Shown piece by piece: positions 6,315 to 62,411 of a DNA stretch of 64,000 nucleotides. The notes beneath the pieces were generated by a model. It searched no databases and had not been told where the DNA came from. It worked only from the letters and a program-made list of their open reading frames with translations. This DNA is from Lebetimonas sp. JH292 (GTDB lineage Bacteria > Campylobacterota > Campylobacteria > Campylobacterales > Nautiliaceae): assembly GCF_000523275.1 (NCBI RefSeq), contig NZ_ATHQ01000001.1:257001-321000 (forward strand), in the 5' to 3' direction. The stretch's first letter is position 1; every line of letters begins with the position of its first letter. The position numbers and the translations under genes were made by a program.

Positions 6315-6759
6315 ATGAAAAAATTGTTATTCATACTGTTATTGATTTTTTTTAGCGGATGTTCTATCAAACAGGCATTAAAACACGACCCTTTTTATGA
6401 AAAAACACTAAAATATACCCAAAGAGCCCAAATATTAAATTCTCTAGAAACAAAATCGTTAATTGATGCGGTTTATTTGAATAACTTGTAATAAAAATAA
6501 ATTCGAAAACCCCACTTTTTTAATAGGAATTTATAATGATTTTGATAATCAGTTAACAAACCAGGAATTTTCAATTTGTTTAAACGGACAAAAGCCTGTT
6601 AAAATTTCCTCCAAAATACCTGAATTTATTTTATATAAAAATTTCCCTTTTTACAATTCCTGGATGAGTTATTATATTGTTGAATTTCCAAAAACAGACA
6701 AACCTTATATTTTAGAATACAAAAGCAAAGACTGGGGAGAAGCTAAACTTATTTTTTAA
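6315..6759 (+). pseudogene. lipoprotein gene split by a single frameshift
   Basis: Frame one (6315-6491, 58 residues) starts MKKLLFILLLIFFSGC, a clear lipoprotein signal, and continues through KTLKYTQRAQILNSLETKSL to a stop at 6489. From about 6481 the +1 frame is open to a stop at 6757 and reads on sensibly (NPTFLIGIYNDFDNQ, YNSWMSYYIVEFPKTDKPY). The two frames overlap only between the TGA at 6478 and the TAA at 6489, so one extra base, or two missing, in 6478-6489 explains it. Corrected, it would be a lipoprotein of about 147 residues of unknown function. Recent frameshift, sequencing error or recoding cannot be told apart here; no slippery heptamer is evident. Its 3' end overlaps the slt gene by 11 bases tail to tail. 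Confidence 0.75.
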
Positions 6760-20104: not shown

Positions 20105-20207
20105 AAATTATATTATTAATAAAATTTTTTACATTATACTTTAATATTAAATTTTAAGTGTCAGTCACTATTAAATACAATTTTACATTTTACATTATCC
20201 ATTAAAT

Positions 20208-20286
<79 letters not shown>

Positions 20287-20301
20287 GTATGATAAAATAT
20301 A

Positions 20302-20377
20302 TGGTGGTCGCTGCAGGGCTCGAACCTGCGACCCCCAGCTTGTAAGGCTGGTGCTCTCCCAACTGAGCTAAGCGACC
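20302..20377 (-). tRNA. tRNA-Val (TAC)
   Basis: 76 nt with encoded CCA. Acceptor GGTCGCT pairs fully with AGCGACC; anticodon stem CCAGC/GCTGG encloses CTTACAA, anticodon TAC. Confidence 0.96.
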
Positions 20378-20379
20378 CA

Positions 20380-20455
<76 letters not shown>

Positions 20456-20457
20456 AA

Positions 20458-20533
20458 TGGTGACCCGTGTTGGATTCGAACCAACGGCCCTCTGCTTAAA
20501 AGGCAGATGCTCTACCGACTGAGCTAACGGGTC
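20458..20533 (-). tRNA. tRNA-Lys (TTT)
   Basis: 76 nt with encoded CCA. Acceptor GACCCGT pairs with ACGGGTC; anticodon stem TCTGC/GCAGA encloses CTTTTAA, anticodon TTT. First gene of the operon Lys-Glu-Val-Asp. Confidence 0.96.
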
Positions 20534-56684: not shown

Positions 56685-57383
56685 ATGAAAGTTCAAAACC
56701 TAACACAAAACCATATAAACAATCATTTACAAAAAATTCAAAAAGATTTAGATAAAATATCCAATCCAAATGTAGAAGAAACAGTAAACAAATTTGTAAA
56801 TGATGTATTCCAAAACGATATTGATTCCAATTTACAGGAAATTAATAATTATAATGAGGCGATTGGTTTTACACAAATTGCAAACGGGGCTTTAAATTCA
56901 ATCAGGGATAATTTACAAGATATAAAAACACTTCAGGCTGCATCAAACAATGCCGCACTCAGTAATGATAATTTAAACACAATCAATTCCCAAATTCAAA
57001 AATATACCAAAAATATAAATAATACTTTAGAAAATACAACATATAATAATAAAAATGTTTTTGGAAGTTTTCAGTTTAACGAAATTAATATAAATACCTC
57101 CATGCCAAATTTTGATGTTGACAATCTCGATGAATTTGAAAAATCATTAAACAGTGCATTTTCAAGTATCGGAGCGGCCCAAAATGCTTTGAGAGATAAA
57201 GTCAATAATCTGTCACAAAATATAGTATCAGAATCTGCAGCTAAAGCTCAAAATGAACCGGATATGGCCAAAAAAGTTATGGATATGCAAAATGAAAAAA
57301 TAAAATTAAATGCCTCTGTTTTAGCGCAGGTTCATCAAAACAGTCTAAATATAGAATATATTACATCTTTATTAAGAGATTAA
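56685..57383 (+). CDS. short flagellin-like protein
   Basis: 232 residues. The central part (NEAIGFTQIANGALNSIRDN, LQDIKTLQAASNNAAL, INNTLENTTYNNKNVFGSF) and C-terminus (IGAAQNALRDKVNNLSQNI, LNIEYITSLLRD) follow the flagellin D1/D0 helices, but the N-terminal D0 sequence is not the usual flagellin one and there is no variable D2/D3 domain. It may be a minor flagellin or filament-associated protein. No flagellar neighbours. Confidence 0.68.
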   Translation: MKVQNLTQNHINNHLQKIQKDLDKISNPNVEETVNKFVNDVFQNDIDSNLQEINNYNEAIGFTQIANGALNSIRDNLQDIKTLQAASNNAALSNDNLNTINSQIQKYTKNINNTLENTTYNNKNVFGSFQFNEININTSMPNFDVDNLDEFEKSLNSAFSSIGAAQNALRDKVNNLSQNIVSESAAKAQNEPDMAKKVMDMQNEKIKLNASVLAQVHQNSLNIEYITSLLRD

Positions 57384-57518: not shown

Positions 57519-57524
57519 TATAAT
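57519..57524 (+). promoter_or_regulatory. -10 of the amino acid ABC operon
   Basis: TATAAT in the 172-base spacer before the operon, 31 bases upstream of the start region. The rest of that spacer (57384-57518) is AT-rich and shows nothing else. Confidence 0.55.
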
Positions 57525-57555
57525 GATTTGAAAAAAATATTAAAAGGAGAAAAAA

Positions 57556-58338
57556 ATTAAAAAAATACTTGCCCTGTTTGTACTTTTAGGAGTAATTTTT
57601 AGCGGTTTAAATGCTGATTTACTCCAGGATGTTCAAAAAAGAGGTGTATTAAAAGCAGGTGTAAAATATGACTTTCCACCGTTTGGTTATGTAAACGAAA
57701 AAGGTCAGGTTGTAGGTTTTGATATAGATTTGGTTAAATACATTGCAAAAAAACTCGGTGTGAAACCTGTATTTACACAGGTTACTTCAAAAACAAGAAT
57801 TCCAATGGTTCAAAGCGGGAGCGTAGATATTGCAGCTGCCAGTATGACCCACAAAGTAAAAAGAGATTTACCGATAGATTTTACAATCAGTTATTATTTT
57901 GACGGTCAGTCAATTATGGTTAGAAAAGATTCCACAATTAAAAACTATCATGATTTAAGCGGTAAAAAAGTCGGAGTAATTCAGGGGGCTACAAGCGGAG
58001 ACAATTTAAAAAGAGTAAATCCAAAAGTTAAACTTGTATATTTCCAGGAATATCCTCAGGCTGTTATGGCATTAAAAAGAGGAAAAATCGATGCAGTTTC
58101 AACAGATTATACATGGTGTGTAACCCAAGCTAAAAATTCACACGGTGCATTCAAAGTTGTAGGCGGAACATTTACTTTCGAACCTTACGGAATGGGAGTC
58201 AGAGAAAATGAATCAAACTTCAGAGATGCAGTAAATTTTGCAATACAAGATGCTGTAAGGGACGGAACTTATCAAAAACTTTATATAAAATGGTTCGGAA
58301 CAAAACCAAACAGACTTCCTGAAGTTTGGCCTAAATAA
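57556..58338 (+). CDS. polar amino acid ABC substrate-binding protein, ATT start
   Basis: The frame from 57556 gives MKKILALFVLLGVIFSGLNA, a typical signal peptide, then LLQDVQKRGVLKAGVKYDFP, PFGYVNEKGQVVGFDIDLVKY and on to the stop: 260 residues, family 3 solute-binding protein. An optimal AAGGAG (57544-57549) sits six bases before the codon ATT at 57556. No ATG, GTG or TTG lies in frame until 57730, well inside the mature protein. Start therefore appears to be AUU. Probably binds glutamate, aspartate or a related amino acid. Confidence 0.85.
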   Translation: MKKILALFVLLGVIFSGLNADLLQDVQKRGVLKAGVKYDFPPFGYVNEKGQVVGFDIDLVKYIAKKLGVKPVFTQVTSKTRIPMVQSGSVDIAAASMTHKVKRDLPIDFTISYYFDGQSIMVRKDSTIKNYHDLSGKKVGVIQGATSGDNLKRVNPKVKLVYFQEYPQAVMALKRGKIDAVSTDYTWCVTQAKNSHGAFKVVGGTFTFEPYGMGVRENESNFRDAVNFAIQDAVRDGTYQKLYIKWFGTKPNRLPEVWPK

Positions 58339-58368: not shown

Positions 58369-59082
58369 ATGGGTTATGAATTTGATTGGCATGTGTTAAT
58401 TGAATATAAGCAGCTGCTGATAAATGGATTAATTACTACAATAAAACTTTCGGTTTTAGGAATAATTTTCAGCTTTATAATTGGTTCTATCGTAGGAATC
58501 GGAAGAGCCTCCAAAAGCTTTTGGCTGAGTCTTATTTCAAGTTATTATGTTGAAAGTTTCAGGAACATTCCGTTAATTGTACAAATGTTTTTCATATATT
58601 TTACTTTCACTCTTTCACAAATTTTTCCGTTTTTAAATACATGGGGGGATTTTTTACATATAGATGACGTGGATGCATTTTTTTCAGCCCTTTTAGCGCT
58701 TATTTTATACACAGGTGCTTATATTGCGGAAGTGGTAAAAGCGGGGATACGTTCCATTCCAAAAGGGCAGTTTGAAGCTGCAAGATCTCTCGGAATGAAC
58801 AGATTTCAGGTAATGTGGTATGTAATATATCCTCAGGCTGTCAGAATTATCATTCCACCTCTTACAAGCCAGTTTTTAAATTTAATAAAAAACTCTTCTT
58901 TGGCCATGACAATAGGTGTGGCGGAGCTCACTTTTTCAACTCAACAAATAGATGCTGAAACTTTTAGAGGCTTTGAAGCGGCAACAGCAGTTACAATTCT
59001 TTATATTATTTTAACTCTGAGTACTTCGTTTATAATGAATCTCATAGAAATAAAATTTTCAAAAGGCGTAAAAAATGCTTAA
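58369..59082 (+). CDS. amino acid ABC transporter permease
   Basis: 237 residues, about five or six membrane helices. HisM/GlnP family: LLINGLITTIKLSVLGIIFS, ESFRNIPLIVQMFF, and the EAA loop IPKGQFEAARSLGMNRFQVM. Overlaps the next permease by 8 bases. Confidence 0.93.
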   Translation: MGYEFDWHVLIEYKQLLINGLITTIKLSVLGIIFSFIIGSIVGIGRASKSFWLSLISSYYVESFRNIPLIVQMFFIYFTFTLSQIFPFLNTWGDFLHIDDVDAFFSALLALILYTGAYIAEVVKAGIRSIPKGQFEAARSLGMNRFQVMWYVIYPQAVRIIIPPLTSQFLNLIKNSSLAMTIGVAELTFSTQQIDAETFRGFEAATAVTILYIILTLSTSFIMNLIEIKFSKGVKNA

Positions 59083-59893
59083 AAACATAGAAAATTATTT
59101 CAAAACACATAAAATAGTATTTTGGATTTTCAATATTATTGTAATTGCTGCGCTGCTTAAAATTTTTCAAATGCTTGCATACCCTGAGACCCATTACGAA
59201 GAACTTTTTACAAAAGATAACTTAAGATTTCTGTTTTTTGGAAGACCGGGGGAAATAGGAGGACTTGCCTTAACTTTTATTTTGGCTGTTGTTTCAATAA
59301 TTTTAAGCTTTATACTTGGTTCAATATTTGGAATCGCAAGATGGTCTAGTATTAAATTAATTAAAATACCATCGATTTTATATATTGAAATAGTAAGGGC
59401 AACCCCGTTGCTTATGGTGATATTCTGGGTGTTTTTTGCAATACCGGTATTTTCAATGAGCTTTTTTCACACTCAGGCACATATATCACCTACCGTTGCG
59501 GCGATAATTGCATTTACCATATTTACAAGTGCTTATGTTGCCGAAATAGTAAGGGCCGGTATAAATTCCATTCCGAAAGGTCAGTTTGAAGCTGCAAAAT
59601 CTCTTGGTATGAATAATTTTCAGACATTTTTTTATATAATTCTGCCTCAGGCATACAGAAAAATGATACCGGCGTTTGTATCACAGTTTGTTGCACTTTT
59701 TAAAGATACGTCTCTTGCTTATACAATAGGCGTAATTGAATTTTTCAGGGCTGCAACAATTATCAATAACAGACTTTATATCAGTTTTGAAGTATTTTCT
59801 TTTGTAGCATTGGTATATTTCAGTATAGCATTCAGTATGAGTAAATTTTCTCATCATTTAGAAAAAAAAGTTGAAAAACAGCTTAACGCATAG
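59075..59893 (+). CDS. amino acid ABC transporter permease
   Basis: 272 residues, second permease of the same operon: GEIGGLALTFILAVVSIILS, EIVRATPLLMVIFWVFFA, EAA loop IPKGQFEAAKSLGMNNFQTF. Forms a heterodimer with the preceding permease in PEB1-like or glutamate systems. Confidence 0.93.
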   Translation: MLKNIENYFKTHKIVFWIFNIIVIAALLKIFQMLAYPETHYEELFTKDNLRFLFFGRPGEIGGLALTFILAVVSIILSFILGSIFGIARWSSIKLIKIPSILYIEIVRATPLLMVIFWVFFAIPVFSMSFFHTQAHISPTVAAIIAFTIFTSAYVAEIVRAGINSIPKGQFEAAKSLGMNNFQTFFYIILPQAYRKMIPAFVSQFVALFKDTSLAYTIGVIEFFRAATIINNRLYISFEVFSFVALVYFSIAFSMSKFSHHLEKKVEKQLNA

Positions 59894-59901
59894 GAGCATA
59901 G

Positions 59902-60645
59902 ATGGATAATGACAAAATCATTCAGATGAAAGATATTGAAAAATATTATGGAAATTTCCACGCCCTAAAAGGTGTAAATTTCGATGTAAAAAAAGGAGAA
60001 GTTGTAGTGGTCTGCGGACCGAGCGGAAGCGGAAAATCTACACTTATAAGATGTATAAACAGACTCGAAGATATTGACAGCGGAAAAATAATTATTGACT
60101 CTAAAGATTTATATCACAAAAAAACAAATATAAACAAACTCCGTCAGGAAGTTGGAATGGTTTTTCAGCATTTTAATCTTTTTCCTCATTTGACAATACT
60201 CGAAAATATTACTTTGGCTCCGGTCAAAGTAAAAAAAATGCCAAAAAAAGAAGCCGAGAAGCTTGCTATGAGCCTGCTTGAGAGGGTTAAAATTCCTCAT
60301 CAGGCAAACAAATACCCAAGTGAACTTAGCGGAGGTCAAAAACAGAGGGTTGCAATTGCCAGAACACTGGCAATGAAGCCTAAAATTATTCTTTTTGACG
60401 AACCGACAAGCGCACTGGACCCGGAAATGATAGGTGAAGTACTTGATGTTATGAAAGAACTTGCAAAAGAAAATTACACAATTGTGTGTGTAACACACGA
60501 AATGGGATTTGCAAGAGAAGTGGGTGACAGAATTGTATTTATGGATGCAGGCCAGATAGTAGAAGAAAATACGCCTGAAGAATTTTTCAACAACCCTCAA
60601 ACAGACAGGGCAAAAAAATTCTTAAGTGAAATCTTACATCATTAA
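59902..60645 (+). CDS. amino acid ABC transporter ATP-binding protein
   Basis: 247 residues, GlnQ class: Walker [21 protein letters not shown]-loop [19 protein letters not shown], signature [16 protein letters not shown], Walker [17 protein letters not shown]-loop [11 protein letters not shown]. The only ATPase for the operon's three permeases. Confidence 0.95.
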
Positions 60646-60657
60646 AAGGAGATAAAA

Positions 60658-61458
60658 ATGAAAAAATTACTATTTACGGTTTTAGCTTTGGTATCAATGG
60701 TTTTTGCTGCCGATTTTAATCTTTGGCAAAAATCCACTTTAAATCAGGTTGTAAAAAAAGGAGTTCTCAGAGTTTGTTTAGAGCCCGGTTATGTTCCTTT
60801 TGAAATGAGAGACAAACACGGAAGAATAATCGGTTTTGATGTTGATGTTGCAAAAAAAATGACTAAAGATATGGGTGTAAAATTAAAACTTGTTCCAACT
60901 GCATGGGACGGCATTATTTCAGCACTTATTACCAATAAATGTGATATCATAATGTCAGGTATGACCATTACCCAAAAAAGAAACTTAAAAGTGGCATTTA
61001 CAAATCCATACTTTTTAGTCGGTCAAACGCTTCTTGTAAATAAAAAACACATAGGTGTAAAAAGTTATAAAGATTTAGATAAAAAAGGTATGGTAATTAC
61101 TACAAAACTCGGTGTTACAGGGGAAATTGCCGCAAGAAAACTCTTTAAACACGCCACAATCAAAACATTTGATTCAGAAAGTGCAGCTGTTCAGGAAGTT
61201 ATAAACAACAGAGCAGATGCATTTATATACGATAAACCTTACAATGAATTATTTATGGCAGGTAAAGGAAAAGGGAAACTAATTTTTCTTAATCAGGATT
61301 TAACTTATGAACCTCTCGGATTTGCAATTAATCACGGTGATCCGGATTTTCTAAACTGGCTAAACAATTTCTTAAGACAAATCAAACATGACGGAACTTA
61401 TGAAAAACTGTACAACAAATGGTTTAGACATACTGATTGGTTAAAAAGAGTTCAATGA
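60658..61458 (+). CDS. second polar amino acid substrate-binding protein
   Basis: 266 residues: signal MKKLLFTVLALVSMVFA, VLRVCLEPGYVPFEMRDKHG, IIGFDVDVAKKMTKDM, NKCDIIMSGMTITQKRN, DAFIYDKPYNELF. Family 3 binding protein of a different branch from the first one in the operon. Ends with an ATGA overlap onto the third permease. Confidence 0.93.
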   Translation: MKKLLFTVLALVSMVFAADFNLWQKSTLNQVVKKGVLRVCLEPGYVPFEMRDKHGRIIGFDVDVAKKMTKDMGVKLKLVPTAWDGIISALITNKCDIIMSGMTITQKRNLKVAFTNPYFLVGQTLLVNKKHIGVKSYKDLDKKGMVITTKLGVTGEIAARKLFKHATIKTFDSESAAVQEVINNRADAFIYDKPYNELFMAGKGKGKLIFLNQDLTYEPLGFAINHGDPDFLNWLNNFLRQIKHDGTYEKLYNKWFRHTDWLKRVQ

Positions 61459-62411
61459 AAAAGTCAATATTAAAAAAAAAAGAAACAGGCTTACTTTTAG
61501 CCTCTCTTTTTTATATATTGGTAGGATATTTTTTATATAACGCTGCAAGCAAAATAAATTATACATGGAAATGGGATATGATTCCCAAATATTTTGTATA
61601 TAAGGCTAAAATTCCTCTTACATCTCCATGTGACGGAAAACTTCAGATAAAACAAAACAAAGCGATAATAATCTGCGAAAATAAAAAAATTTATCAGTTT
61701 GATATAAATGGTTATAAATTACAATTTAAAAATGGTGAATATTTATTTCAGGATGATGAATTTGCATATAAAGAAAAATTAAAACCGGGTCCTTTTATTT
61801 TAGGAATGTGGGTAACTGTTAAAATTTCAATTATTTCAATGCTTTTCGCTTTTTTAATCGGCCTTATAATAGCAATAATAAGGCTAAGCGGTATCCCGGC
61901 ACTTGATTATATAGGAAGTTTTTATGTTACTGTTATCCGTGGAACTCCTCTTTTGGTGCAGCTGTTTATTTTTTATTTTATAGTGGCAACTATTTTTGCA
62001 CTTCCGAGATTTTGGGCGGGTGTTATGAGTTTATCTATATTTTACGGGGCTTATATTGCAGAAATTCTAAGAGGTGCAATCCAGGCGGTAGATAAAGGGC
62101 AACACGAAGCTGCAATGTCACTCGGATTCACACCGATTCAGAAAATGTATCTGATTATTCTGCCGCAGGCCTTAAAAAAAGCGCTTCCCGCACTTATAGG
62201 TGAGCTTATTTCATTAATAAAAGACAGTTCACTTGTATCGGTTATATCCATTACAGACCTTACAAAAGTGGGAAGGGAAATAGTTGCAAACACATTCTCT
62301 CCATTCGAAGTATGGCTCACGGTAGCTGTTCTTTATTTGATGTTAACTTCAATATTGAGTTTTATAGGACATAAACTTGAAAAAAGAATGAAAGCGCAGG
62401 GCGGAATTTAG
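61455..62411 (+). CDS. third amino acid ABC permease with an extracytoplasmic insert
   Basis: 318 residues. First helix near 13-31, then about 80 residues rich in Lys and Ile with a Cys pair (SPCDGKLQIKQNKAIIICEN) placed outside the membrane, then the permease core (GMWVTVKISIISMLFAFLIG, VIRGTPLLVQLFIFYF, EAA loop VDKGQHEAAMSLGFTPIQ). The extra domain is not in ordinary permeases of this class. I start at ATG 61455, inside the preceding gene. Confidence 0.88.
   Translation: MKKSILKKKETGLLLASLFYILVGYFLYNAASKINYTWKWDMIPKYFVYKAKIPLTSPCDGKLQIKQNKAIIICENKKIYQFDINGYKLQFKNGEYLFQDDEFAYKEKLKPGPFILGMWVTVKISIISMLFAFLIGLIIAIIRLSGIPALDYIGSFYVTVIRGTPLLVQLFIFYFIVATIFALPRFWAGVMSLSIFYGAYIAEILRGAIQAVDKGQHEAAMSLGFTPIQKMYLIILPQALKKALPALIGELISLIKDSSLVSVISITDLTKVGREIVANTFSPFEVWLTVAVLYLMLTSILSFIGHKLEKRMKAQGGI

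Follow-up and report, generated by a model that had tools for sequence, protein, structure and literature searches.

An ATT codon at the ancestral start site of a family-3 amino-acid-binding protein gene of Lebetimonas sp. JH292: possible AUU initiation or an error of the assembly

In the genome of Lebetimonas sp. JH292, a hydrothermal-vent-type bacterium, a stretch of 64,000 nucleotides was analysed (the window, to which all coordinates given without a contig refer). One gene for a solute-binding protein (SBP) in this window shows a Shine-Dalgarno (SD) sequence followed by ATT, and the locus raises the question of whether translation begins at this codon or whether the base at its third position has been misread. 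The features of the start site and of the gene are the following:

57519..57524, + strand: probable -10 box TATAAT, conserved and similarly placed in each of the five closest relatives, its activity presumed
57544..57549, + strand: Shine-Dalgarno sequence AAGGAG, read directly, 6 bases 5' of the ATT (spacing of 5-6 nt in relatives)
57550-57555, + strand: spacer of six A, read directly
57556..57558, + strand: ATT in place of the ancestral ATG start codon (ATG in G001, G008, G005, G032 and L031)
57556..57615, + strand: signal peptide (I/M)KKILALFVLLGVIFSGLNA, from alignment and hydropathy
57616..58338, + strand: mature family-3 solute-binding protein and stop codon (PF00497, TIGR01096, PDB 4zv1)
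57730..57732, + strand: TTG at codon 59, the earliest canonical start codon, located within the mature domain and without a good SD site

The product of the gene (57556-58338, + strand) is a family-3 periplasmic amino-acid-binding protein. It matches PF00497 with an E-value of 1.9e-40 (138.1 bits against a cut-off of 26.4), and its best relative in the PDB is 4zv1 (E=7.6e-54); matches to TIGR01096 and to GlnH-like models fall under the NCBIfam cut-offs. Together with the PF00497 match, the signal peptide and the neighbouring ABC permease and ATPase genes place it in this family. It shares sequence type, signal peptide and ABC-transporter neighbourhood with known family-3 amino-acid-binding proteins (PF00497, TIGR01096, PDB 4zv1) and differs from them in its start codon only. 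The remainder of the transporter cluster consists of:

58369..59082, + strand: amino-acid ABC transporter permease (PF00528)
59075..59893, + strand: amino-acid ABC transporter permease (PF00528)
59902..60645, + strand: ABC transporter ATPase, GlnQ-like (PF00005; NF007027 with E=3.1e-98, below its cut-off)
60658..61458, + strand: second family-3 solute-binding protein, with an ATG start (PF00497)
61455..62411, + strand: third permease of the cluster (PF00528)

Directly 5' of this cluster (56685-57383) lies a gene for a short flagellin-like protein of 232 aa that matches Flagellin_N only.

Read directly, positions 57544-57558 consist of AAGGAG, then AAAAAA, then ATT. The ATT is flanked by two A7 runs and is followed by the codons AAA AAA ATA CTT GCC (downstream sequence AAAAAAATACTTGCCCTG). 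From 57544 onwards, frame +1 contains no stop codon until the one that ends at 58338. The original prediction held that AAGGAG-N6-ATT falls in register with a signal peptide and the N-terminus of the protein family, and this is borne out by the sequence and by five relatives, in which the SD precedes the start at a similar spacing (5-6 nt). It is also correct that no ATG, GTG or TTG occurs in frame before codon 59, the first being the TTG at 57730; a search for a canonical in-frame start compatible with a full-length SBP found none, and the homologues begin at codon 1. A standard ORF caller does truncate the protein, as had been anticipated for automatic annotation, and the product that it calls from codon 59 is devoid of a signal peptide. 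An upstream in-frame ATG at 57523 was rejected as a start, being located inside the -10 box and followed by TGA.

The closest homologous loci are those of the sister species G001 (94% identity), G008 (86%), G005 (84%) and G032 together with its twin record L031 (80%). Codon 1 was compared among them, as had been proposed, and is ATG in all five, each of which shares the TATAAT and AAGGAG elements; the AUU is thus not conserved in related species. The N-terminus (I)KKILALFVLLGVIFSGLNA-DLL aligns gap-free from residue 1 with these five ATG-starting relatives, and the start codon differs from that of the sister species in its third base alone. From this alignment, the ATT is best read as a single G-to-T change that is confined to this genome and falls on the true start site. 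In the closest relatives TATAAT lies approximately 30 bases upstream of the start codon; the element at 57519..57524 is absent from the listing of a simple promoter scan. Judged from its position, transcription would be expected to start near 57531, giving a leader of approximately 25 nt, which is A-rich and weakly structured. No strengthening of the SD relative to the sister was found, G001 also having AAAGGAG.

Comparison with the sister species further shows the gene to be gap-free and 94% identical, with dN of 0.035, dS of 0.82 and a ratio of approximately 0.04. Using G008 as outgroup, four lineage-specific amino-acid changes are seen here and eight in the sister. By these measures the SBP gene is intact, under strong purifying selection and without decay. 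So much is shown by the data: where the start site lies, that the locus is homologous to those of the relatives, that promoter and SD are conserved, and that the gene is intact and constrained.

The explanation that we favour, with a probability of only about 0.44, is that 57556 is the true start, that the ancestral ATG became ATT by a single G-to-T change and that the initiator tRNA begins at AUU. A good Shine-Dalgarno sequence in an A-rich, weakly structured leader would place the initiator tRNA (anticodon CAU) on the AUU, which would give formyl-methionine, probably at reduced yield. The initiator tRNA found in this genome carries the anticodon CAU and is of the ordinary type; a special initiator tRNA was rejected on this ground. 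The CAU anticodon pairs with AUU as a near-cognate, which IF3 disfavours (PMC10158994), and in poor medium the AUU and AUA start sites of Staphylococcus aureus reach approximately 10% of the AUG level (PMC13009471). Taken with the good SD, these observations lead us to expect reduced but real synthesis. A correct base, initiation at AUU and a lowered yield are all inferred.

A survey of approximately 400 SD-preceded homologous starts, of which approximately 360 are canonical in both genomes, places this case in context. Among the approximately 360 starts no second case like the ATT of the SBP gene was found, nor any genome-wide habit of starting at ATT. The other non-canonical cases inspected had a canonical start nearby, arose from a frameshift or misalignment, or involved an internal codon that is not a start. 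As all of these are explained otherwise, the SBP ATT is not a chance alignment.

About equally likely is that the ATT arose as an error in sequencing or assembly and that the organism has ATG and an ordinary gene; the weights given to these two readings are a matter of judgement and not of computation. The genome comprises 1.64 Mb in five contigs, of which 764 kb (~47%) were compared with 760 kb of the sister G001, scoring conserved, well covered genes of at least 150 codons (n=459). Thirty-one of the 459 are broken, 27 through frame changes (28 broken once doubtful calls are removed). The reverse comparison shows no frame break in the sister; three stop calls there, among 455 genes, were judged to be model artefacts. 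A first analysis over 364 kb had given 19 of 284 broken, against one of 161 in finished N. profundicola. The lesions are insertions or deletions of 1-2 bases, plus deletions of 6-34 bases, and they affect the only copies of leuS and dnaE in the genome; hemA, lysA, argC, uvrA, lpxB and napA, as read from their sequences, appear to be broken as well. No free-living cell could survive the loss of all these genes, so most of the lesions must be sequence errors, and in an assembly so rich in errors no single base is trustworthy. Frame-broken conserved genes are located at C1:909914-912366 and C1:469815-473172 of this genome (G000) and at approximately 25 other places, and a block of 5000 N, masked or withheld, stands at C1:190001-195000.

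Local sequence adds to the case for an error. Position 57556 lies between the two A7 runs, and an A/T run of at least 6 occurs within 20 nt of 36% of lesions, against 23%, a modest enrichment. Codons 4 and 5 (ATA CTT) are also changed in this genome only and account for two of its four lineage-specific amino-acid changes; these may be ordinary drift of the signal peptide or a sign that the sequence is poor at this place. Genuine switches from AUG to AUU are very rare, having occurred in one of 61,358 ancestral AUG starts (PMC5622118). Scaled to 360 starts, this rate predicts 0.006 cases, although the branch here is probably longer than in that study (PMC5622118). The lack of SD strengthening relative to the sister also speaks against initiation at AUU.

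Against an error, the lesions seen in this assembly are indels, and simple base substitutions appear to be rare. No clean substitution-made stop was found among the 459 orthologues: of four stop-type cases, m127 is an insertion-deletion pair, m263 is a gap-free multi-base scramble and the remaining two look like mis-extended gene models. There are approximately 92,000 single-base opportunities for creating a stop and approximately 2,500 for losing one of the approximately 360 surveyed starts. Point changes falling at random, be they errors or mutations, would then be expected to remove fewer than 0.08 starts (95% bound). The scarcity of substitution-made stops mildly favours the base being real and tolerated, an argument that weakens if m263 is counted as a substitution. 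The SBP operon is itself unbroken, with no break seen within the transporter cluster; the approximately 65 genes of the window include one that is clearly frame-broken (~6488-6493), plus a short interrupted reading frame near 20200-20520. The former is a small gene (6315-6756), present in the sister as one 147-aa frame and split here by a frameshift near 6488-6493.

It is rather improbable that the ATT is a real but recent start-loss mutation of the sequenced strain that leaves the gene silent. AUU is a poor start codon, and the second family-3 binding protein in the same cluster, with its ATG start, may cover for the first. On the other hand, with four lineage changes against eight and a dN/dS of 0.04 the gene shows no decay, so that any loss must have happened very recently, and both SD and promoter are intact. 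Less probable again is that a real ATT has been selected as a deliberately weak, fidelity-sensitive start, which would fix how much is made of one of the two binding proteins that share a set of permeases. Initiation elsewhere, at the TTG of codon 59 or at an upstream TTG (57528) combined with a frameshift, is very unlikely: these are canonical codons such as annotation software would pick, and the frame of TTG 57528 is open as far as a TAA at 57558-57560, but a protein begun at codon 59 would be missing its signal peptide as well as the beginning of its mature domain, and this codon has no good SD, while TTG 57528 is one base out of frame and without an SD, and its place just 3' of the -10 box is no later than the expected transcription start.

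Returning to initiation at AUU, one precedent is infC, the gene of IF3, which uses AUU, AUC, AUA or ATT starts linked to autoregulation by IF3. Like the SBP gene, infC has a near-cognate AUU instead of AUG behind an SD site; it differs in being autoregulated by IF3 and in having its AUU conserved among related species, whereas here the product is a binding protein and the ATT occurs in one genome only. In this genome infC starts with ATG, as in Nautiliaceae, while many of the order's other families have TTG, and the lineage is thus without the AUU device even for IF3 itself. At this gene (G000 C1:1022.6-1023.2 kb; L073, L102), which overlaps the end of thrS, ATT and ATG stand side by side in frame; the ATT was rejected as the start because relatives mostly have ACT-ATG, which makes the ATG the likely start. 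Regulation of the SBP start by IF3, which the original prediction had hinted at, finds no backing in the ATG start of infC in the family, the ordinary CAU anticodon of the initiator tRNA or an SD that is not strengthened relative to the sister, and it must be regarded as a guess. What stands of the AUU interpretation is the ancestral start site, the replacement of ATG and the truncation by ORF callers; IF3 control does not.

In E. coli, pcnB, as cited in PMC13009471, is a single chromosomal gene other than infC that reportedly has an AUU start and initiates weakly; its start was shown experimentally, whereas that of the SBP gene is predicted from sequence. In S. aureus, cvfC1 (AUU) and ccpN (AUA) have near-cognate starts behind an SD (PMC13009471). 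These are conserved across species, possess extended SD motifs and were found by ribosome profiling (PMC13009471); in contrast, the AUU described here comes from sequence data, is confined to one genome and follows an SD not extended relative to the sister. The sigR gene of Streptomyces starts with GTC, is repressed by IF3 and depends on this start for correct control (PMC5472188), and like the SBP gene it has a rare start codon that was missed by annotation.

For claims that rest on a single base, this locus indicates that checking against the local assembly error rate is needed, that rate being high enough here to break essential genes. Should the base be wrong, nothing about the gene is out of the ordinary; should it be right, the gene joins infC, pcnB and cvfC1 as a further AUU start of this known type. 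A real ATT would add to infC and pcnB an AUU start restricted to one lineage, and would provide an example of a secreted protein that is truncated and stripped of its signal peptide by standard gene callers.
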